DNA from: Niabella ginsenosidivorans
GTDB taxonomy: Bacteria; Bacteroidota; Bacteroidia; Chitinophagales; Chitinophagaceae
Direction: 5' to 3'
Assembly: GCF_001654455.1 (NCBI RefSeq)
Contig: NZ_CP015772.1
Span: forward strand, 248,001-312,000
DNA length: 64,000 bases
Below, piece after piece: positions 32,931-44,049 of this stretch. The notes below the pieces were generated by a model that made no database searches, was not told the origin of the DNA, and was given only the letters and a program-made list of their open reading frames with translations. Positions within the stretch are counted from its first letter, which is position 1, and the number at the start of each line of letters is the position of its first letter. Made by a program: the position numbers and the translations under genes.

Positions 32931-33341
32931 TTAGAATTTATAGCCCAGTCCCACACCTACGTTCCATTTTCCGTCGGCTGTGGTTGTTTTGGTATTATAA
33001 TACAAGGGAACCTGTATTACCAGTTGCTTGTATGATGCGCTGAGCCCGCAGCCCAGGGAAGGTGTTACGGTTGCGTTTTTGGAGGCATTGGCAGCTGCTT
33101 TGTCTTCTTTAATACGCAGCGAGGGGAGCATACCCAGGCTGATGCAGAAAGGCTTCCGTGTCCATTTAACAGCTGGGCCTCCAAAGTTGAGAAATGCCCC
33201 TTTATCCACATAGCCCGCTACAATCATGCCGTCCCAAAGAGAGGCGCTGGTTTTGGAAGCAGGGGTTGTTTGTGCAGCAGCGGTTCTTGTCAGCAGCAGC
33301 ATTGCTGCCAGTATCAGTAGTTTGGATCTATTGCTGTTCAT
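32931..33341 (-). CDS. Small exported protein in the nitrite reductase operon
   Basis: This is a protein of about 136 residues with a signal peptide (LLILAAMLLLTRTAAAQ). The mature part is beta-rich and ends in GKWNVGVGLGYKF, a terminal aromatic typical of outer-membrane barrels. Segments WDGMIVAGYVDKGAFLNFGGPAV and PFCISLGMLPSLRIKED suggest alternating strands. I know no function; similar small proteins seem to accompany nirBD/FNT genes in other Bacteroidota, from memory. The ATG at 33341 overlaps the 3' end of nirD by 14 bp and is the only start that places the signal peptide at the N-terminus. Confidence 0.7.
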   Translation of the reverse strand: MNSNRSKLLILAAMLLLTRTAAAQTTPASKTSASLWDGMIVAGYVDKGAFLNFGGPAVKWTRKPFCISLGMLPSLRIKEDKAAANASKNATVTPSLGCGLSASYKQLVIQVPLYYNTKTTTADGKWNVGVGLGYKF

Positions 33342-33714
33342 ATGCCGGATAAGTTGAAGGGTTGGGTGTAAGGAGGGATGCAATATCAATGAAGACATTG
33401 CCCTCATGTACTTTAACCGGATACGTTTTAATAGCGCTGCAGTTTTCATCATTAAGGCACTCCCCGTTTTTAAGCGAAAATGTTTTTTTATGAAACGGGC
33501 AGGCCACTTTTGGCTCTCCCTGCTGTGACCCCAGTATACCCCGGCTGAGCGCCATCTGCTTTTTGTGCGGACACAGGTTTTGTGTGGCATACCATTCCTT
33601 ACGGTGGGTGAAATAATAAAGAGCGATCTGCTCCGTTCCATACTGCACGCACACACCTCCGTTGTGCGGCATGTCTGCTGTCTTACAGGCATAGATCCAG
33701 TTACTTTTTTGCAT
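33328..33714 (-). CDS. nirD: Nitrite reductase small subunit (Rieske-type)
   Basis: This 128-residue Rieske-fold protein is the small subunit of NADH-dependent assimilatory nitrite reductase. The Rieske-type motif positions are NLCPHKKQMALSRGILG and VACPFHKKTFSLKNGECL. They retain one Cys-x-His (C-P-H) and a second C-P-F-H, so a [2Fe-2S] cluster is possible, whereas many NirD proteins have lost it. It is 26 bp downstream of nirB and overlaps the next small gene. Together they reduce nitrite to ammonium in the cytoplasm. Confidence 0.9.
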   Translation of the reverse strand: MQKSNWIYACKTADMPHNGGVCVQYGTEQIALYYFTHRKEWYATQNLCPHKKQMALSRGILGSQQGEPKVACPFHKKTFSLKNGECLNDENCSAIKTYPVKVHEGNVFIDIASLLTPNPSTYPAYEQQ

Positions 33715-33740: not shown

Positions 33741-36230
33741 TTACCATTCTGCGGCTTTCTTCTGGCCGCGCATTGTTTCAAATACCACCGTAGGGTCTTT
33801 GGCTTCCGGGGCATTGATAAAATGGGCGAAGCGTTTTCTCAGTTCAGGTGTTTCCACCGCTTTTTTCCATTCGCACTCATAATGGTCTGCAAGCGTTTGC
33901 ATCTGAGCTTCCAGTTCAGCGCCAATGCCCAGGCTGTCATGCACCACTACATTTCTCAGATAGTCGATGCCACCTTCCATTTTATTCAGCCAGGTAGCGG
34001 TGCGGGTCAATGGGTCGGCTGTTTTGATGTAAAACATCAGGAACCGGTCAATGTATTTTATACAGGTTTCGGAATCAATATCCGCAGCCAGTAATAAGGC
34101 ATGCTGGGGTTTGGAACCTCCGTTGCCGCATACATAAAGGTTCCAGCCTTTTTCAGTGGCAATGATGCCAAAATCTTTCGATTGTGCTTCGGCACATTCA
34201 CGGATACAGCCGGAAACGGCCGACTTTATTTTGTGCGGGGCCCTTAATCCTTTATACCGGTTTTCAACGCGTATGGCAAAACTTACACTGTCATGCAAAC
34301 CAAAGCGGCACCAGGTAGACCCTACACAGCTTTTTACGGTGCGCAACGCCTTTCCGTAAGCATGGCCGCTTTCAAAACCTGCTGCAATCAGCTCTTCCCA
34401 GATCAATGGCAGGTCATTTAAATGGGCACCAAAAAGATCAATACGTTGCCCGCCGGTTATTTTGGTATACAGGTTGTATTTTTTTGCTACTTCACCAATC
34501 ACAATGAGTTTTTCCGGTGTAATCTCACCTCCCGGTATGCGGGGCACAACGGAGTAAGTGCCGCCTTTCTGAATATTGGCCAAAAAGCGGTCATTGGTGT
34601 CCTGTGAGGTGGCGCTTTCCTTTTTAATGATGAGGTCGTTCCAGAGACTGGCCAGGATGGAGCTGACCGCCGGCCGGCAAATTTCGCAGCCATCGCCGGC
34701 ACCCAGCGTATCCAGCACTTCATCGAATGAGTGCAGGTCTTTGATTTTTGTAAGATCATAGAGCTCCTGGCGGGAATAAGCAAAGTGCTCACAGATCACA
34801 TTGCGTACTGCTTTCCCCTGCTTTTTTAAAGTAGCAGTGATAATATCTTTTACCATTGGCGTGCATCCGCCACAGCCCGAACCGGCGCCGGTACATTTTT
34901 TTACCGCGTCAAAAGATTCGCAGCCCTTCCGGACAACCGCATCTTCAATGGTTTGCTTTTTTACACCTTCGCAGCTACAGATCAGTGCTTCAGCGGGAAG
35001 CTCAAAATCATCTGCGCCATTTGCGGTTTTGTTTGATGTTACGATCAGGTCAGCCGGCGAAGAAGGTACTGCCAGCCGGTTGGTGCAGATCTGCTGTAGT
35101 TGATTATAGGTTTCCGCATCTCCCACCAGGATGCCGCCCAGCAGTTCTTTGCCGTCATTGGAAACATTGATGCGCTTATAGATGCCTTTATGATTATCAT
35201 GGTAAATGATGGAACGGGCTTCTTCACCGCCGGTGAACGGGTCGCCAAAGCTGGCCACATCAATGCCGATCAGCTTTAGCTTGGTGCTCATGTCAAACCC
35301 TCTGAAGTCTCTGGTGCCGCCGCTTAGCTGGTGTGCCACCACTTCTGCCATTTCATAACCCGGGGCTACCAGCCCATAAACAGTCCCTTCATGTACGGCG
35401 CATTCACCAATGGCATAGATAAACGGATCGCTGGTTTGCATCTGATCATTTACGGAGATGCCGCCTCTGTGACCGATGGTTAAACCGCATTTTTTAGCCA
35501 GCTCATCGCGGGGCTTAATGCCGGCAGAGATCACCAGCATGTCTGTGTTGAGTATACTGCCGTCGGTGAACATCAACCCGGTAATGGTTTCATTACCCAG
35601 GATTACGGCGGTATTCTTTTGTGTATGCGTAACGATGCCTAAGGCTTTGAGCTTTTCAGTAAGCACATGGGAGCCACCCTCGTCGATCTGGCGGGGCATC
35701 AGCCGGGGCGCAAATTCGATCACATGCGTGTCAGTGATGCCCAGGTCCAGCATAGCCTTGGCAGCTTCCAGGCCCAGCAGCCCACCGCCGATAACAACAG
35801 CTGATTTTGCCACTTTTGCATGCCGCCAGATGAGGTTCAGGTCTTCAATAGTACGGTAAACAAATACGCCATGCTTGTCAACACCGGAGATCGGTGGTAC
35901 AAAAGCCGCCGAGCCTGTAGCAAATACCAGGTAGTCATATGAGAATTGCTTTCCTTCAAAGGAAGTGATGACTTTCTGATCACGGTCTACCTGTACAACA
36001 GGATCACCGAGATGCAGATCAATCTGATTCTCTTTATACCAGTTCATAGGCTTCATGCACAGGTCCTGAACGGTTTTGCCGGCAAAATATGCGCTCAGGT
36101 GCACCCGGTCGTAGGCAGGAAGCGTTTCTTCTCCAAAAACGGTCAGTTTAAGGCTTTCCGGTTTTTGAGCAACCAGTTTCTCGCAAAACTTTTGCCCCAC
36201 CATGCCGTTGCCAATAACAACAACTTTCAT
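33741..36230 (-). CDS. nirB: Nitrite reductase [NAD(P)H] large subunit
   Basis: This 829-residue cytoplasmic enzyme reduces nitrite to ammonium. In order it has the FAD/NAD(P)H oxidoreductase part (MKVVVIGNGMVGQKF and VVIGGGLLGLEAAKAM), a BFD-type [2Fe-2S] domain with CSC at residues 418-420 and a CGGC pair, a second BFD-like unit (GAGDGCEICRPAV), and the siroheme/[4Fe-4S] module. The cluster cysteines are Cys635 and Cys641 (C-x5-C), and Cys675 and Cys679 (C-x3-C). nirD follows 26 bp downstream. A promoter with TTTG and TATATTTG lies upstream, and cobA, for the siroheme precursor, is divergent. Confidence 0.97.
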   Translation of the reverse strand: MKVVVIGNGMVGQKFCEKLVAQKPESLKLTVFGEETLPAYDRVHLSAYFAGKTVQDLCMKPMNWYKENQIDLHLGDPVVQVDRDQKVITSFEGKQFSYDYLVFATGSAAFVPPISGVDKHGVFVYRTIEDLNLIWRHAKVAKSAVVIGGGLLGLEAAKAMLDLGITDTHVIEFAPRLMPRQIDEGGSHVLTEKLKALGIVTHTQKNTAVILGNETITGLMFTDGSILNTDMLVISAGIKPRDELAKKCGLTIGHRGGISVNDQMQTSDPFIYAIGECAVHEGTVYGLVAPGYEMAEVVAHQLSGGTRDFRGFDMSTKLKLIGIDVASFGDPFTGGEEARSIIYHDNHKGIYKRINVSNDGKELLGGILVGDAETYNQLQQICTNRLAVPSSPADLIVTSNKTANGADDFELPAEALICSCEGVKKQTIEDAVVRKGCESFDAVKKCTGAGSGCGGCTPMVKDIITATLKKQGKAVRNVICEHFAYSRQELYDLTKIKDLHSFDEVLDTLGAGDGCEICRPAVSSILASLWNDLIIKKESATSQDTNDRFLANIQKGGTYSVVPRIPGGEITPEKLIVIGEVAKKYNLYTKITGGQRIDLFGAHLNDLPLIWEELIAAGFESGHAYGKALRTVKSCVGSTWCRFGLHDSVSFAIRVENRYKGLRAPHKIKSAVSGCIRECAEAQSKDFGIIATEKGWNLYVCGNGGSKPQHALLLAADIDSETCIKYIDRFLMFYIKTADPLTRTATWLNKMEGGIDYLRNVVVHDSLGIGAELEAQMQTLADHYECEWKKAVETPELRKRFAHFINAPEAKDPTVVFETMRGQKKAAEW

Positions 36231-36428: not shown

Positions 36429-37202
36429 ATGACAAAATTAATCTTAATAGGAGCGGGGCCCGGAGATCCGGAACTGATCACACTGAAGGCCATACGGGCG
36501 CTTCAGAAAGCGGATGTGATATTGTATGATGCGCTGGCAAATGAAGAACTGCTGTTGTATGCCCCGAATGCGGCTGTTAAGCAATTTGTGGGTAAGCGTT
36601 TCGGATGTCATGCATTAAGTCAGCAGGAGATCAATGATCTTATATTAGAATACGGACAGCACTATAAGCATATAGTGCGGTTAAAAGGAGGCGACCCGTT
36701 TGTGTTTGGCCGGGCACAGGAAGAAATGGAGATAGCCTTTGCTGCAGGAATGCAGGTTGAAGTGATCCCGGGAATTTCCAGTGCCCTTGCGGTACCGGCA
36801 TCGGAAATGATACCATTGACCTGCAGGGGAGTGAATGAAAGTTTTTGGGTGGTTACCGGTACCACACGGTCAGGAGAGTTATCGGAGGATATTGCATTAG
36901 CGGCCCGGTCATCTGCAACCGTGGTGCTGCTGATGGCCATGAGCAGACTGGAAACGATCGTGGATATCTTTATGGCAGCCGGGAAAGGAGAAACTGCTGC
37001 CGCCATCATTCAGAATGGTACACGGCCTGATGCAAAAATGGTATTGGGAAAGGTAAAAGACATTGCCTGCCGCGCGCAGCACAGCGGTCTGGGCAACCCG
37101 GCTGTTATTATTATTGGTGAAGTGGTGAACCTGAGCCGGCAACTGGCGGATAAGATGGCTGCCGGTAACGGAATAGCTGCTGTAATGGGCGGGTTGATAT
37201 AA
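36429..37202 (+). CDS. cobA: Uroporphyrinogen-III C-methyltransferase
   Basis: This 257-residue SAM-dependent enzyme methylates uroporphyrinogen III to precorrin-2, the precursor of siroheme. Family motifs are ILIGAGPGDPELITLKAIRAL at the N-terminus, VRLKGGDPFVFGRAQEE, EVIPGISSALAVPA and the C-terminal NPAVIIIGEVV. It is the single-domain SUMT type, so oxidation and iron insertion need another protein not found in this window. Divergence from nirB across 198 A/T-rich bases fits supply of siroheme for NirB. Confidence 0.95.
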   Translation: MTKLILIGAGPGDPELITLKAIRALQKADVILYDALANEELLLYAPNAAVKQFVGKRFGCHALSQQEINDLILEYGQHYKHIVRLKGGDPFVFGRAQEEMEIAFAAGMQVEVIPGISSALAVPASEMIPLTCRGVNESFWVVTGTTRSGELSEDIALAARSSATVVLLMAMSRLETIVDIFMAAGKGETAAAIIQNGTRPDAKMVLGKVKDIACRAQHSGLGNPAVIIIGEVVNLSRQLADKMAAGNGIAAVMGGLI

Positions 37203-37642: not shown

Positions 37643-39133
37643 TCATAGGTATTGCCGGTTCAGGCTTTCCTGTTCAATTTTTATAAACTGGTCCTTGTTT
37701 GCCTCACATAAAGAGCAGGTATAAGTATGGGGCAAGGTTGCAAATGCAGTGCCGGCTGGAATGCCGTTTTCAGGATCTCCGGTTGTGGCGTCATAAACAG
37801 TAAGGCAATGTGCGCATTGATAAATAGGCTCTTCTGTAAACGCTGATGCAGTAACCGGCGAAGTAACGCTTCCCCGGAAGGGAAGTTCCTGATGCGTGCA
37901 CTGGTCGTAGAAGGCAGCAAGCGATTTGCGCAGATTCCCGGCCAGCAAAAAACGGGGAAGATTGCTGCGGAAGATATAGCCGGTGCGTTTATTGGGATTG
38001 TAATCGTGCGCGCAAAGGATATCATATAAATAAAACAGGGCATAGCCCCTGATGGGTAAAACGGGTTTGCGTTTTACCAGTATGCTGCTGAATATTTCGC
38101 TCTTCTTCCTGGTTTTGATGCCGATACAGAGGCCGAATGTACGGGTGTCAGTATTGTTCAGTTCTTTTACCAGGTATTGTTTCAGCCGGGTGGCCTTGCT
38201 GTTATTGTCTTCTACCTGAAAATTGAGCTCATTGGCTGCATGACGCATATTGATCGTATGTATATTCAGCAATGCATTCCACAAGTGTTTGTCTTTTTCT
38301 TCAATACCTTTCACAATAACCGATTTCCAGGGCGTGGAGCACAGCTGTCCGATCTTTGTTTGCAGGCAGATGCTGCAAAGGTCTTTTAAAAATGCAACAG
38401 GAAATAATTCATCCCTGCGGTATACGCCCAGCCAATACCTGTTATTGTGCTTGTGCAACCCTTCATAATAAGGCAGGTTAAACTCTGGTAATACCGCTCT
38501 TTGTTCCGCGGGTTTTGTAATATATTGTTTCTCCTGTATTCGCAGGAAGAACGTAGTTCCATCCGCGCCCGGCTGGTCATAAAACAGCGTTTTGTTGTTC
38601 AGGATCAGTGCCTCAATTTCCTTTGAAAGACGCGCAATGTCGTTGGTATAAACCATCTTGTCCCATTCGTAAATGGTATTGGTTTTCGGAAACCGGATCA
38701 GCAGGTGCCAGAAATGCGGTACGCTGGCGGATGCTACCCAGTTGATATTACCGGTCAGTAACGGAGTAAAGCTCTGGTGGCTGTCGGAAATATTGATCTT
38801 GAATCTGGGCGGGTAGTCTATTGCGTTCAGAATGTCTTTATAGGTGCCCTCGCTCAGCCAGGTGTGGGCAATAAAAATGTCTTCGGCGGGGCAGGAGGTT
38901 ACAATGTTAGGAAAAGCATCATTGTTTATTTCGTAAAATAAATTGCTTTGTTCCAGAAAGGTGGTAAGCGGCTTTATTTTCCGGGTAGGACAGTTGGTTA
39001 ATAATTGCTGCCGCAATCCAAAGCTTACCTGTTGCACACCTGCGTGCTCCAGGTGCTCCAGTAGTTGATACAGCAGCCCGGGCGATATAATTCCGCCTGC
39101 AAAGTTGATTTTTATTTTGCTGTATTTCCTCAT
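37643..39133 (-). CDS. Degenerate siroheme nitrite/sulfite reductase-like protein with C-terminal rubredoxin domain
   Basis: This 496-residue protein appears built like an assimilatory nitrite/sulfite reductase. It has a ferredoxin-like half (about 5-62, ending in VQQVSFGLRQQLL), a region aligned with the cluster domain (about 75-150), and a second ferredoxin-like half (about 233-292, GQLCSTPWKSVIVKGI). The cluster motif is lost: only Cys81 remains of C-x5-C, and the C-x3-C position reads ISDSHQS (115-121). The C-terminus is a rubredoxin with Cys440, Cys443, Cys473 and Cys476. Its ATG overlaps the nitrate reductase stop by 4 bases (ATGA), so the two are translationally coupled. It may pass electrons to, or assemble with, the nitrate or nitrite reductase. 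The homology of the N-terminal part is my reading by eye. Confidence 0.75.
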   Translation of the reverse strand: MRKYSKIKINFAGGIISPGLLYQLLEHLEHAGVQQVSFGLRQQLLTNCPTRKIKPLTTFLEQSNLFYEINNDAFPNIVTSCPAEDIFIAHTWLSEGTYKDILNAIDYPPRFKINISDSHQSFTPLLTGNINWVASASVPHFWHLLIRFPKTNTIYEWDKMVYTNDIARLSKEIEALILNNKTLFYDQPGADGTTFFLRIQEKQYITKPAEQRAVLPEFNLPYYEGLHKHNNRYWLGVYRRDELFPVAFLKDLCSICLQTKIGQLCSTPWKSVIVKGIEEKDKHLWNALLNIHTINMRHAANELNFQVEDNNSKATRLKQYLVKELNNTDTRTFGLCIGIKTRKKSEIFSSILVKRKPVLPIRGYALFYLYDILCAHDYNPNKRTGYIFRSNLPRFLLAGNLRKSLAAFYDQCTHQELPFRGSVTSPVTASAFTEEPIYQCAHCLTVYDATTGDPENGIPAGTAFATLPHTYTCSLCEANKDQFIKIEQESLNRQYL

Positions 39134-42100
39134 ACGCTTTGCTTTTCGATAGTTATGGTTTCTTTTGGATAAAGGCCCAGGTTTTTTTCGAGGATGGCTT
39201 TTACTTCCGGTTTACAGCTGCCACAGCCCATACCGGCGCCGCTCAGCTGGCAGAGCTGCAGGTGATCGGTACAGCCTTCTTTGATCTTATTAATCAAATT
39301 GCCTTCTCCCACATTGTTGCAACTGCATACCAGTTTTCCGATCACGGGTTCCGGGGCCTTGCCGGACCGCAGTAGTTGCAGGCGTTTTTCACTGAGCTCT
39401 AGTTTTTTTTCAATAAGGTTACGGTACTCTAAGAATTCAGTTTTGTCGCCGATAAGAATAGCACCTACCAGGCGGTCTTCGTGAATAATGCATTTTTTGT
39501 AATAGCGCTGTGCTTTGTCAATAAAGATCACTTCTTCATAGGCAGGATCGTCCGGGCATTCCACCATTCCAAGGGAACAGAGATCGGTGCCATGCATTTT
39601 CAGTATGTTCATTGCTAATGTGCCACTGTAATACATGGATATATCTCCATTCAGGTAATGCGCTGCAATTGCTGCCTGCTGCTCGGCTGCTGCTGTAATA
39701 CCATACATACGGCCTTTGAATTCGGCTATTTCTCCTATGGCAAAAATGCCGGGGTCTGAGGTTTGAAGGTACTCATTCACAATAACGCCCCTTTTGCATT
39801 CCAGTCCGCTGGACCTGATGAAATCAATGTTGGGAACGGTGCCGATAGCAAACACAATAGCCGTGCAGCTGATGGTACGGCCGCTTTTTAAACGGATACC
39901 GGATACGGAACTGCCGCCAAGTATCCGGTCTGCTTCATCGTTAAAATAAATTTCAATTCCCTTATCGGTCAGCTCTTCATAGAGGAGCTGGCTACCAATG
40001 GTATCCAGCTGACGGTCCATCATGCGGGATGACCGGTTCAGGATCGTTACGGCTATGTTGATCTCACGGAGGGAGGCCGCCAGCTCTACCCCTAATAAAC
40101 CGGCTCCTATAATAACCACTTTTCCTTTAAAGGCTGCAGCGTGCGCCGTGAACAGATCGGCGTCTGTACGGCTGCGCATGGTGAATATGCCTGCCATAGC
40201 GGGTATTTCTTTGGGCAGGGCAGGACTGCTGCCGGTAGCCATTATTAAAATGTCATAATTGTGCACCTGCCCCTTGCTATCGGTGATCGTTTTGTTGCTG
40301 CGGTCAACGTTCAGAATGCTGACGCCCCGGTGCAGCCGGATATTGTAATCATATTCCTCCTGGCTGGTCATTTTTACCAGGCTGTCCCATTGCAGGGTAC
40401 CGGAAATATAATCCGGTAGCAATACCCGGTTGTAAAAAGGAAAATTCTCCTTGCTGAAAACTTCAATTTCATCGGTAGTATTCAGCGCGCGGTAGCTTTT
40501 TACAAAACCACAGGCTCCTGCGCCGGCGCCTGCCACAAGGATCTTTTGCCGGGGTTTCCGGTAACGGCATATTGCAACAGCAGTGTATTTGAAATCGGGC
40601 TCTTTGCTTTGGGGGTCTGTAAGGTTATTGGTAAGATTGTTTGCCCTGACCAGGTCCCTGCCCAGTAGCTTACCCCAGTGCATGGGAAGGAACACCACGC
40701 CTTTTTTTATGGTATCTGTGAGCTTTGCCCTCACCCGCACTTCACCCCGTGGGTTGCTGACCGCAACGAGGTCGTCCTCATTAATGCCGAGCGCTGCAGC
40801 ATCTTCCGGGTGAATCTCTAAGAAAGAAGCACTGATGTGCTGCCGGAGCTTGTTTACCTTACCGGTCTTGCTCATGGTATGCCATTGATCCCGGATGCGG
40901 CCGGTGGTTAGTATGAACGGGAAATCCGGTGTTAAAGGCTCTGATTGGTTCACGTCCGGGAAGGAATGTAGCTGTGCCCGTTGTGTAGGGGTAAAGAATT
41001 GTTGGTTTTCAAAGAGCCGCTTTGTGCCTTGCTGGTCTTCTTTGTCTGCTGCAGCAAGGTGTTTGGTTGTAAACGGCCACTGTACGCTATTGCGCTGGCG
41101 GAGTATATTGTAGTTTAAGCTGCTGATGTCCATCTTTGTTCCGCCGGTAAGAGCAGCATGTTCTTCAAAGATGGCTGCCGGACTTTCATAATCAAAACCC
41201 GGGAATCCCATTTTCCGGGCGAAACGGCAAATGATGGTTGCATCCGGTAATGCTTCACCAGGGGCATCATTTATTTTATTAAGCAGGCTGATACGGCGTT
41301 CGGCATTGGTCATAGTGCCTTCTTTTTCGGTCCACGCAGCTGCGGGCAATACCACATCCGCGTATTGCAGTGTTTCCGGCTTGTTGCTGATTTCCTGTAC
41401 CACTACAAATTTTGCCTTTTTTAAGGCTGCTTCTGCCCGGCGCACATCGGGCAGGCTGATCAGCGGGTTGGTGCATAGGATCCAGATAGCTTTCAGACGG
41501 CCGTCTTCAAGCGCTTCAAACATTTCTGTTGCCGTAAGCCCCGGCCGCGGGGAAATAGTTCCCGGAGCAATGCCCCAAAAATCTTCTACTTCCCTCCGGT
41601 GCTGTTCTTTGGAAAGGTTGCGGTGGGCAGGCAGCAGGTTTGATAGTCCGCCTACTTCCCGGCCGCCCATGGCATTTGGCTGGCCTGTTAAGGACAGTGG
41701 CCCGGAACCGGGTTTGCCGATATGACCAGTGATCAGGTTGAGATTGATCAGTGAAAGGTTTTTGTTTACACCGATCACGCTTTGGTTCAGCCCCATGGTC
41801 CACATGGTCATAAATCCCTTCGCCTTGTTAATATATCGGGCCGCCTGTAAAATATCTGTTTCGGCTACGCCGCAGATCAGTGCTGCTTCGGCAATGGATC
41901 GTTGAAAGACTGTTTCCCTGTAAGCCGCAAAGCCTTCCGTATGTTCCCGGATAAATGTTGTGTCCACCCATCCGTTCTCAATCAGTGCCCGGCCTATAGC
42001 ATGGTGCAGGGTGATATCGGTTCCGGGGTTGAGCTGGAAATGAATATCGGCAGATGCGACCGTTTGTGTTTTGCGCGGATCGCTTACAATAATCTTTAAA

Positions 42101-42717
42101 AGCGGATTGCGTTGCCGGGCAGCTTCTACCCGCCGCCACAGGATGGGATGGCACCAGGCAGGATTGGCTCCCGCAACAAAAATAACATCTGCCAGCTCCA
42201 GGTCCTCATAGCTTACGGGCACGCTGTCTTCTCCCAGGCTCCTCTTGTAGGCCGCTACTGCGCTGCTCATGCACAGGCGGGAGTTGGTGTCAATGTTGTT
42301 ACTGCCTATATACCCTTTCATCAGCTTGTTGACCACATAATATTCTTCGGTAAGGCACTGGCCGGAGGCGTAAAAGGCAACCGAGTCCGGGCCATATTTT
42401 TCAATCAGTGTTTTAAATACGGCAGCAGTCCGTTCCAGGGCTGTGTCCCATGAAACCCGCCTGCGGGGCTGGTTCCGGTTGTACCGCATTTCGGGATACA
42501 GCAGCCGGTCGCTGTAATCATTGGCTGTATAATGCAGGTTCATGCCCTTGCTGCAAAGCATACCTTTGTTTACCGGGTAATCCTTGTTGCCTTCCACCTG
42601 AAGACGGCCCAGTTTGTTTTTACGTACGGTAATGCCACAGCCAACGCCGCAATAGCAACATACCGTATTCATTGCAGTATTGTTACCGGAATTATCATCA
42701 GGGCTGGAAGTGATCAT
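39130..42717 (-). CDS. Single-chain assimilatory nitrate reductase fused to NADH/FAD and [2Fe-2S] modules
   Basis: This 1195-residue fusion starts with a molybdopterin oxidoreductase of the NasA/NapA type: [4Fe-4S] cysteines C20, C23, C27 and C55, then RLCMSSAVAAYKRSLG with the likely Mo-ligand Cys, and the C-terminal molybdopterin dinucleotide-binding domain (FILTTGRIRDQWHTMSKTG) up to about residue 700. From about 715 it continues as a NirB-like FAD/NAD(P)H oxidoreductase (KILVAGAGAGACGF, VVIIGAGLLGVELAASL) and ends in a BFD [2Fe-2S] domain (VCSCNNVGEG and GCGSC). This fuses the roles of separate catalytic and electron-transfer subunits of other bacteria. A second possible start is the ATG at residue 16. 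Confidence 0.94.
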   Translation of the reverse strand: MITSSPDDNSGNNTAMNTVCCYCGVGCGITVRKNKLGRLQVEGNKDYPVNKGMLCSKGMNLHYTANDYSDRLLYPEMRYNRNQPRRRVSWDTALERTAAVFKTLIEKYGPDSVAFYASGQCLTEEYYVVNKLMKGYIGSNNIDTNSRLCMSSAVAAYKRSLGEDSVPVSYEDLELADVIFVAGANPAWCHPILWRRVEAARQRNPLLKIIVSDPRKTQTVASADIHFQLNPGTDITLHHAIGRALIENGWVDTTFIREHTEGFAAYRETVFQRSIAEAALICGVAETDILQAARYINKAKGFMTMWTMGLNQSVIGVNKNLSLINLNLITGHIGKPGSGPLSLTGQPNAMGGREVGGLSNLLPAHRNLSKEQHRREVEDFWGIAPGTISPRPGLTATEMFEALEDGRLKAIWILCTNPLISLPDVRRAEAALKKAKFVVVQEISNKPETLQYADVVLPAAAWTEKEGTMTNAERRISLLNKINDAPGEALPDATIICRFARKMGFPGFDYESPAAIFEEHAALTGGTKMDISSLNYNILRQRNSVQWPFTTKHLAAADKEDQQGTKRLFENQQFFTPTQRAQLHSFPDVNQSEPLTPDFPFILTTGRIRDQWHTMSKTGKVNKLRQHISASFLEIHPEDAAALGINEDDLVAVSNPRGEVRVRAKLTDTIKKGVVFLPMHWGKLLGRDLVRANNLTNNLTDPQSKEPDFKYTAVAICRYRKPRQKILVAGAGAGACGFVKSYRALNTTDEIEVFSKENFPFYNRVLLPDYISGTLQWDSLVKMTSQEEYDYNIRLHRGVSILNVDRSNKTITDSKGQVHNYDILIMATGSSPALPKEIPAMAGIFTMRSRTDADLFTAHAAAFKGKVVIIGAGLLGVELAASLREINIAVTILNRSSRMMDRQLDTIGSQLLYEELTDKGIEIYFNDEADRILGGSSVSGIRLKSGRTISCTAIVFAIGTVPNIDFIRSSGLECKRGVIVNEYLQTSDPGIFAIGEIAEFKGRMYGITAAAEQQAAIAAHYLNGDISMYYSGTLAMNILKMHGTDLCSLGMVECPDDPAYEEVIFIDKAQRYYKKCIIHEDRLVGAILIGDKTEFLEYRNLIEKKLELSEKRLQLLRSGKAPEPVIGKLVCSCNNVGEGNLINKIKEGCTDHLQLCQLSGAGMGCGSCKPEVKAILEKNLGLYPKETITIEKQSV

Positions 42718-42738: not shown

Positions 42739-44049
42739 TTAAGAAACAGTAGCGGGCTGCATACGGGTAGCTGTTTTTTCCGTAGCAGCTTCCTGTTTTC
42801 CAAACCGGGTGAACAATACAATAAATGAAGTTGCAATAACAGCAAGCCCTATATAGCTAAAAGCCTGCGAATAAGTAATGGCGTTGCTTTTGAACAGGAA
42901 GCCAAACAGCATGCCTCCTAAATTGCCTCCGGCCCCTACAATGCCACTGATGAGACCAATATTTTTTATATTGATAAAAGGGGTCATGGCATAGGTGGCG
43001 CCGTTCACCATTTTAAGAAATAAGGCAAAGCTGATCATGGCGGTTACGGCCAGTGGCAGTGTGGGCGCTTTGGCAAAGAGCAGCAGGCCAATGCCTTCAA
43101 AAAGGAGCATTACCGCAAGAAAAATACCCTTGCCTTTCATGCCCTGCTTTTTACCGATCTTATCCGCAAAGATACCACCCAGCGCTCTTGCAAAAAGATT
43201 CATCAGCCCGAACACCCCGGCCCAGAAGCCTGCGGCAGCCTGGGATAGTCTGAACTCCTGTACAAAGTGCAGTGCGGCTACATTGTCAAAGGTGATCTCC
43301 ATACCAAAACCCATGGCATATGCCAGGGATAATGCCCATATCCGCCAGTCTTTCAACAGGGAATAATCTGTTTTGACAGAAGCGCTTTTTTTCCCTTTAA
43401 TGGAATCGCCGTAATTGCCTTCCGGTGTATCCTTTGTATAGCGGTAATATAAAAAGGCTGCCAGTATCATTAATAACCCCGGTAGCAGCATGGCATAGCG
43501 CCAGGCCTGGTGTTGGGTATAGCCTAAACCAACAATTGCGGCAAATACCAGGGGCATCAGCATATTGGTAATACCGCCACCCAGGTTGCCCCATCCGCCG
43601 GCTATGGCGTTGGCAGTACCTTTAATATTGGGAGCAAACATTACAGAGGTGTGGAACTGTGTAATTACAAAAGACGCTCCGATAACGCTTATGGCCAGCC
43701 GGAATAACAGGAATGTGGTGTAATCTTTGGACAGGCCCACGCACATTACCGGCAGGGCGCCACAAAGCAACAGCGCCGTATAGGTTTTCCTGGGCCCCCA
43801 GGAGTCACAAAGCCGGCCAATGATCAAACGGGCAATAATGGTTCCGGACACGGAGGCAATAACAATATTGCCGATCTGGGATTTGCTCAGGTGAAGGTCT
43901 TCTTTTATCGTAGGCATCAGCGGCGCCAGTCCAAACCATCCAAAGAAACAGATAAAAAAAGTAAACCAGGTAATATGAAAGGTGCGCATTTGTGCACCTT
44001 TCAAAGAAAAAATATTCAGTTTTGTAAGCGGGGCATTGGAAGAAGTCAT
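42739..44049 (-). CDS. narK: NarK/NasA-type nitrate/nitrite transporter (MFS)
   Basis: This 436-residue protein of about 12 membrane segments belongs to the nitrate/nitrite porter branch of the major facilitator superfamily. The two glycine-rich signature stretches are visible: ANAIAGGWGNLGGGITNMLMP in the first half and SGIVGAGGNLGGMLFGFLF in the second. The substrate-binding arginine is probably in IIARLIIGRLCDSWGPRKTY or FLLFRLAISVIG. It lies 21 bp upstream of the nitrate reductase on the same strand and is probably the first gene of the operon, importing nitrate for assimilation. Confidence 0.95.
   Translation of the reverse strand: MTSSNAPLTKLNIFSLKGAQMRTFHITWFTFFICFFGWFGLAPLMPTIKEDLHLSKSQIGNIVIASVSGTIIARLIIGRLCDSWGPRKTYTALLLCGALPVMCVGLSKDYTTFLLFRLAISVIGASFVITQFHTSVMFAPNIKGTANAIAGGWGNLGGGITNMLMPLVFAAIVGLGYTQHQAWRYAMLLPGLLMILAAFLYYRYTKDTPEGNYGDSIKGKKSASVKTDYSLLKDWRIWALSLAYAMGFGMEITFDNVAALHFVQEFRLSQAAAGFWAGVFGLMNLFARALGGIFADKIGKKQGMKGKGIFLAVMLLFEGIGLLLFAKAPTLPLAVTAMISFALFLKMVNGATYAMTPFINIKNIGLISGIVGAGGNLGGMLFGFLFKSNAITYSQAFSYIGLAVIATSFIVLFTRFGKQEAATEKTATRMQPATVS

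Follow-up and report, generated by a model that had tools for sequence, protein, structure and literature searches.

The gene that follows the nitrate reductase gene nasC in Niabella ginsenosidivorans encodes a two-half siroheme-reductase fold without its cluster loop, joined by a probably flexible linker to a rubredoxin. We coined the name PSR (pseudo-siroheme-reductase with rubredoxin) for this protein, which was found in the window, that is, the whole stretch of 64,000 nucleotides that was analysed. The linkage of its gene speaks for a role in nitrate assimilation, in the simplest case with NasC. With a confidence that falls just short of even, we infer that PSR is an accessory subunit of NasC, in which a docking body derived from a reductase would tether a rubredoxin specific to nitrate assimilation.

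The PSR gene occupies 37643..39133 on the minus strand and encodes 496 amino acids. This reproduces the open reading frame proposed in an earlier note on this DNA, and the assignment draws on Pfam, a structural model with fold comparison and a 38-member family. The start of the gene overlaps the stop of the nasC gene (39130-42717) by the four bases ATGA, as had been claimed. The parts of the protein, all encoded on the minus strand, follow one another along the sequence. The first reductase half (residues 1-214, 38492..39133), delimited by profile alignment to a set of siroheme reductases (the SiR set) and by residue mapping, is made of a ferredoxin-like half-domain and a degenerate NIR_SIR-type domain, and contains R41, Q42, N76 and K112. 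The second half (residues 215-415, 37889..38491), placed by profile alignment and cysteine positions, holds the expected site of the [4Fe-4S] cysteines, which are deleted or replaced, as well as the invariant K270 and E302. It also contains a conserved C253-x2-C256 pair (38366..38377), located in the model within helix 246-258 of the second half-domain. The linker (residues 416-436, 37826..37888) was modelled with low confidence (pLDDT <50 at 416-433). The rubredoxin (residues 437-487, 37673..37825) matches PF00301 at 438-483 with an E value of 1.2e-15, and the CxxC pairs described earlier at 440/443 and 473/476 are indeed present, both in the window protein and in 37 of the 38 family members; the 38th, at locus L034, is without the whole domain.

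For the window protein alone, Pfam evidence for the reductase body is weak, with one PF03460 match (E 0.17) below the cut-off, and the similarity becomes clear with the family and an AlphaFold model. With E values up to 10 allowed, PF03460 matches all 25 aligned PSR members, the best at E 1e-17. When members were scanned singly, two PF03460 stretches were obtained in 8/8 (E up to 10; 6/8 above the curated cut-off), and again in 3/3 further members. The 4Fe-4S domain PF01077 was not detected in the window protein even with E values up to 10 allowed, nor does it figure in the list of 20 families obtained for the 25 PSR members. An AlphaFold2 model was built from 25 sequences (mean pLDDT 84.1, pTM 0.73), and a Foldseek search with it returned Mycobacterium tuberculosis NirA as the best match (E 4e-16), with chains of SiRHP and NiR next in rank. 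In a VIA comparison, residues 6-415 of this model were superposed on residues 81-545 of the SiRHP chain 4g38 (Z 28.7, rmsd 3.4, 381 residues), with Z about 24 for NirA/NiR, and the 52 residues 435-486 on rubredoxin 1rdg (Z 9.9, rmsd 0.9).

Profile-profile comparison of PSR with the SiR set gave P 2.5e-11 over 394 columns. The score for residues 1-430 was 95.9, versus at most 25.5 in 30 column shuffles, and each half matched the set on its own (1-214, P 5.4e-8; 215-415, P 5.1e-6). The SiR/NirA set has 24 rows representing 23 distinct genes (L058 and L092 are the same gene), namely Escherichia coli CysI (NC_000913) and open reading frames of >480 aa from genomes of the phylum; the shorter matches L076, L078 and L081 were left out. 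On the model and these alignments, residues 6-415 are the predicted whole of a two-half sulfite/nitrite-reductase fold. The two ferredoxin-like half-domains that had been recognised by eye are thus recovered by PF03460, with the model and fold comparison in agreement, and the proposed check of the body against NiR/SiR halves came out positive. Residues 1-300 are structurally NiR/SiR-like, as had been supposed, although the fold ends at about residue 415 and not at 300.

Siroheme nitrite and sulfite reductases use four cysteines, arranged as C-x5-C and C-x3-C, for their [4Fe-4S]-siroheme. The cysteines of E. coli CysI were verified at positions 434, 440, 479 and 483, all in the second half, and we take these to be the cluster ligands. 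The motif C-x(4-6)-C...C-x3-C occurs in 0/38 PSR members versus 24/24 rows of the SiR/NirA set (23 distinct genes), and none of the 38 has a C-x3-C ahead of the rubredoxin. When the profiles are aligned, C434, C440 and C483 of CysI fall opposite gaps in PSR, the loop carrying the first cysteine pair being deleted, and C479 falls opposite Arg342, a position that is variable among PSR relatives and never Cys. This last pairing is alignment-dependent (Arg342 with default and loosened settings, elsewhere with a smaller set), but the absence of any C-x3-C is independent of which residue aligns with C479. As read from these alignments, the canonical siroheme-[4Fe-4S] site is lost in PSR. The earlier note was right that cluster cysteines had gone, but it located the site at ISDSHQS (residues 115-121), the aligned counterpart of VVIPPQN in the first CysI half. 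That argument was rejected because it is the second half that should bear the cluster cysteines, and none of the four is left, where one had been thought to survive. A C-x5-C present in 9/38 PSR members was also rejected as a cluster remnant, as it consists of the C253 position and a nearby cysteine.

The distribution of PSR was analysed in a phylum sample of 296 genomes and a class sample of 395 genomes; first-look candidates were scored per genome, only two for NasC, three for NirB and four for PSR (class sample), so that distant members may be missed and absences are provisional. A match to PSR was found in 94 of the 296 genomes, only 23 of them across the body. The remaining 71 matched only from query residue 379 onward and were rejected as PSR members; L055 and L056, two such rubredoxin-only cases, have an N-terminal rubredoxin on a different body. 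Fused NasC is present in 27 genomes of the phylum sample (in G179 the match begins at residue 162), 22 of which have PSR, and full NirB (E 1e-90 or better) is found in exactly these 22. In the class sample, the PSR profile matched 22/395 genomes, 21 across the body, and all 20 genomes with fused NasC have PSR no more than 1 kb downstream on the same strand. G418 was not counted as PSR: its match covers only 359-480 and contains stops, and the HMM was blank over its 20-kb stretch. The search was extended beyond the phylum by one scan, which returned two Bacteroidota loci, and by a plasmid collection, which returned four Bacteroidota members and one rubredoxin-only match from Caballeronia.

The resulting 38 PSR loci come from 32 genomes (window included), two MAGs and four plasmids. 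In 37 of them NasC is encoded upstream in the same orientation, so the coupling to nitrate reductase genes that had been proposed from the window holds across the homologues surveyed. This count includes L001, where NasC is split into two open reading frames (L001:4427-8004, in a Niabella MAG), perhaps by a sequencing or assembly error. The gap between NasC and PSR is at most 204 bases, with nothing else in it, at 33/37 loci; a PF09655 gene intervenes in three (L002, L033 and L121) and another open reading frame in L054. The four-base overlap is seen in six loci, in L053 only with a later start codon. The exception to the linkage is L034 in genome G126, where PSR lies at 273-1556, 272 bases from the contig start, with its rubredoxin missing; a search of this genome for fused NasC and NirB found neither.

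A complete NirB accompanies PSR and fused NasC in 31/31 genomes, and no sampled Bacteroidota genome in which fused NasC and NirB were both found had PSR missing from its nitrate-assimilation cluster. Five genomes outside the class (G219, G050, G008, G155 and G179; loci L057-L061) have fused NasC without PSR and without NirB, and their NasC loci contain instead a two-half siroheme reductase in which the cysteine motif is present. A sampled NasC cluster therefore contains a catalytic two-half reductase or else the combination of PSR and NirB. Since these five genomes share only the phylum with the window, the pattern represents at most two evolutionary states, not 27 independent points. At L057, genes for a flavodoxin and an FNR-like protein separate the siroheme reductase from NasC, an arrangement that suggests an NAD(P)H-driven nitrite reductase in the style of a sulfite reductase.

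The rubredoxin of PSR was the only one found in most of the PSR genomes searched for this domain. When 12 hand-picked PSR genomes of the 32 were searched with PF00301, 11 of them, including the window genome G000, gave a single match, which lies inside PSR; the twelfth, G190, has a shortened PSR rubredoxin and gave no PF00301 match. That the only PSR without a rubredoxin (L034) sits in a genome without detected fused NasC or NirB counts for a dedicated rubredoxin. Two annotated plasmid members (L128 and L129) are named just 'rubredoxin', a label that conceals the entire reductase-fold body. Two Aquirufa descriptions list a rubredoxin with nitrate genes (PMC10821818, PMC12528234); a single PSR rubredoxin per genome fits that listing, on the assumption that the Aquirufa protein is PSR. 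A rubredoxin of the operon is therefore already in print. No description of PSR as a reductase fold was found among the titles and abstract openings listed by searches of open-access literature, a scope that makes this absence weak.

The genes around PSR were assigned in part by family matches and in part by eye. NasC (39130..42717, minus strand) is a molybdopterin nitrate reductase fused to an FAD/Rubredoxin_C/BFD module according to Pfam and NCBIfam, its best NCBIfam matches being below their equivalog cut-offs. Its Pfam matches include Pyr_redox_2, Rubredoxin_C (E 1.1e-22) and BFD (PF04324), the latter with a cysteine pattern that looks normal by eye. Rubredoxin_C also matches NirB (E 1.3e-10) and is thus not specific for rubredoxin. 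NirB itself, the large subunit of a siroheme nitrite reductase (33741..36230, minus strand), matches TIGR02374 with 1035.7 bits (cut-off 578.35), and a NirD-like Rieske protein (PF13806, E 2.5e-29) is encoded at 33328..33714 on the same strand. A tetrapyrrole methyltransferase (36429..37202, plus strand; PF00590, E 5e-49) is probably a uroporphyrinogen-III methyltransferase for siroheme supply; the corresponding genes in the L128 and L129 neighbourhoods are annotated cobA. An open reading frame named by eye as a NarK-type nitrate/nitrite transporter (42739..44049, minus strand) lies upstream of NasC, of which it is a recurrent neighbour, and its counterpart in L128 is annotated as NarK family. 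Open reading frames for a NirC-like channel and a Crp-type regulator, likewise named by eye, are found near PSR. Between the Rieske and NirC-like genes, or overlapping them, runs a further frame (32931-33692, minus strand), the end of which resembles by eye a small secreted or outer-membrane protein.

If PSR is an accessory subunit of NasC, its body would be unable to hold the usual [4Fe-4S]-siroheme pair and would reduce neither nitrite nor sulfite. Like the body of a reductase on its electron donor, it may dock on NasC or on NasC and NirB as a pair; a body that once received electrons for siroheme would now position the tethered rubredoxin. This rubredoxin could be loaded by NasC through its NADH-FAD module, the type of which is rubredoxin-reductase-like, and the electrons might then pass to the molybdenum/[4Fe-4S] domain of NasC or across to NirB, the direction being possible either way. 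The accessory-subunit reading is supported by the fold match, the loss of the motif, the linkage to NasC, the sole rubredoxin, the Pyr_redox_2 and Rubredoxin_C domains of NasC and purifying selection on the body. Against it, the five fused-NasC genomes described above manage without PSR. Against a simple carrier in particular, NasC and NirB each own modules of NADH/FAD/BFD type, so that no carrier is obviously missing. Moreover, co-occurrence with NirB is as perfect as that with NasC, and either may be the partner.

The PSR body is under purifying selection. For the three closest pairs (L045 with L047, L048 and L050), dN was 0.008-0.061 and dS 0.64-1.42 in both body halves, and the dN/dS ratio came to about 0.05-0.07 for the first half, 0.01-0.02 for the second half and 0.03-0.06 for the rubredoxin. 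In the other eight pairs the rubredoxin dN was 0.15-0.58, and many dS values were high or not computable. Over all 11 pairs, which were hand-picked and include many dS values that are saturated or missing, dN of the second half was below that of the rubredoxin in 10, a pattern that suits a binding function no less well than a pure carrier. Column conservation was mixed (0.64 for residues 215-292, 0.53 for 293-415 and 0.57 for the rubredoxin).

The slow second half, together with the FAD/BFD modules present in NasC and NirB, leads us to take a ligand-binding role seriously as a rival, though one we consider unlikely on balance. PSR might bind siroheme in transit, or nitrite or nitrate, and hand it to NirB or NasC, with the rubredoxin sensing or setting the redox state. 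The pattern of conserved residues in the body, with 28 positions invariant across the 38 relatives, suggests a pocket that was remodelled and not decayed. R41, N76 and T267, corresponding to R117, N154 and T393 of CysI, are each kept in 38/38, and two residues invariant in the SiR rows (24/24) have been swapped for others invariant in PSR (38/38), T115 to G39 and Q396 to K270. At the positions of CysI R83, R153, K215 and K217, which we take to be the anion cage, a basic residue is found in 34, 0, 23 and 36 of 38 PSR members, respectively, and the cage as a whole is not preserved. Selection on the body and the adjoining gene for siroheme synthesis are also in favour of a bound ligand. However, R153 and Q121, both invariant in the SiR set, are lost (Arg 0/38, Gln 0/38) along with the cluster loop. 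In addition, the pocket is deduced from alignment and not from geometry, and NirB already accounts for the methyltransferase gene.

The same residues allow a combined reading, to which we give a rather low probability, in which the siroheme-reductase fold has become a non-catalytic channelling subunit of nitrate assimilation, a kind for which the papers searched gave no description. A re-specialised pocket would pass a ligand (for example siroheme in transit, or nitrite from NasC), and the rubredoxin would pass electrons, between the nitrate and nitrite reductases. It is drawn from the T115 to G39 and Q396 to K270 swaps and the loss of R153 and the cluster loop, with R117 and N154 retained.

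We are similarly doubtful that PSR is a maturation or assembly factor for NasC, inserting the molybdenum cofactor or Fe-S clusters, and not a working carrier. The presence of one PSR per fused NasC, with overlapping genes at some loci, would suit such a role, as would the nitrate-reductase-associated PF09655 gene (NarM), which is a small partner gene beside an assimilatory nitrate reductase and takes the slot between NasC and PSR at three loci (L002:7491-7994, L121:8762-9268 and L033:10296-10799). Yet PSR has no PF09655 match, and both proteins coexist at these loci, so that neither replaces the other. The rubredoxin tail, moreover, has no obvious use in cofactor insertion. The PF09655 gene is patchy, being found in only 2/37 genomes searched, and was rejected as a general partner.

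That PSR is still catalytically active as a siroheme nitrite reductase, using an unusual cluster bound for example by C253/C256, is very improbable. The whole fold is kept, and this CxxC, which was absent from the earlier note, is conserved (C253 in 38/38, C256 in 37/38), but the pair lies in a half-domain helix at CysI positions L379 and I382, away from the cluster site, the cluster loop is deleted, and NirB is complete in all 31 genomes found with PSR and fused NasC. Strongly disfavoured, finally, is the view that PSR is what remains of an old nitrite reductase, in decay since NirB took its place: the true siroheme reductases in the clusters of the five out-of-class, NirB-less genomes and the lost rubredoxin of L034 would agree with it, but dN is well below dS in all pairs with estimable dS, the invariant positions persist across the family, and PSR is retained in 20/20 fused-NasC genomes of the class.

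Compared with known proteins, PSR shares with CysI/SiRHP and the NirA-type reductases the two-half fold over residues 6-415 and the R117, N154 and T393 positions. It differs from them in the absence of the cluster cysteines, the first-pair loop, R153 and Q121, in its own invariants G39, K270 and C253, and in the added rubredoxin. Residues 437-487 resemble rubredoxins (PF00301) in having all four iron-binding cysteines and in their close superposition on 1rdg; unlike these, they are fused to a reductase-fold body and encoded with a nitrate reductase gene. By analogy, the role proposed for PSR, that of a carrier inside an NADH-dependent nitrate/nitrite assimilation system, would be like that of NasG of Paracoccus denitrificans, a Rieske protein required for nitrate/nitrite reduction with NasB and NasC (PMC5424462). 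NasG is a Rieske protein whereas PSR carries a rubredoxin, and the PSR cluster additionally has a NirD-like Rieske protein of its own. In Bradyrhizobium, NasC may receive its electrons from the flavoprotein Flp (PMC4724949).

If PSR is indeed an accessory subunit of NasC, the body of a siroheme enzyme would have found new use as partner to a different redox enzyme, and these bacteria would employ a dedicated rubredoxin in assimilating nitrate. The nitrate-assimilation cluster that includes PSR is located on plasmids of about 330 kb in both L128 (Spirosoma oryzicola) and L129 (Hymenobacter volaticus), and can therefore be borne outside the chromosome.
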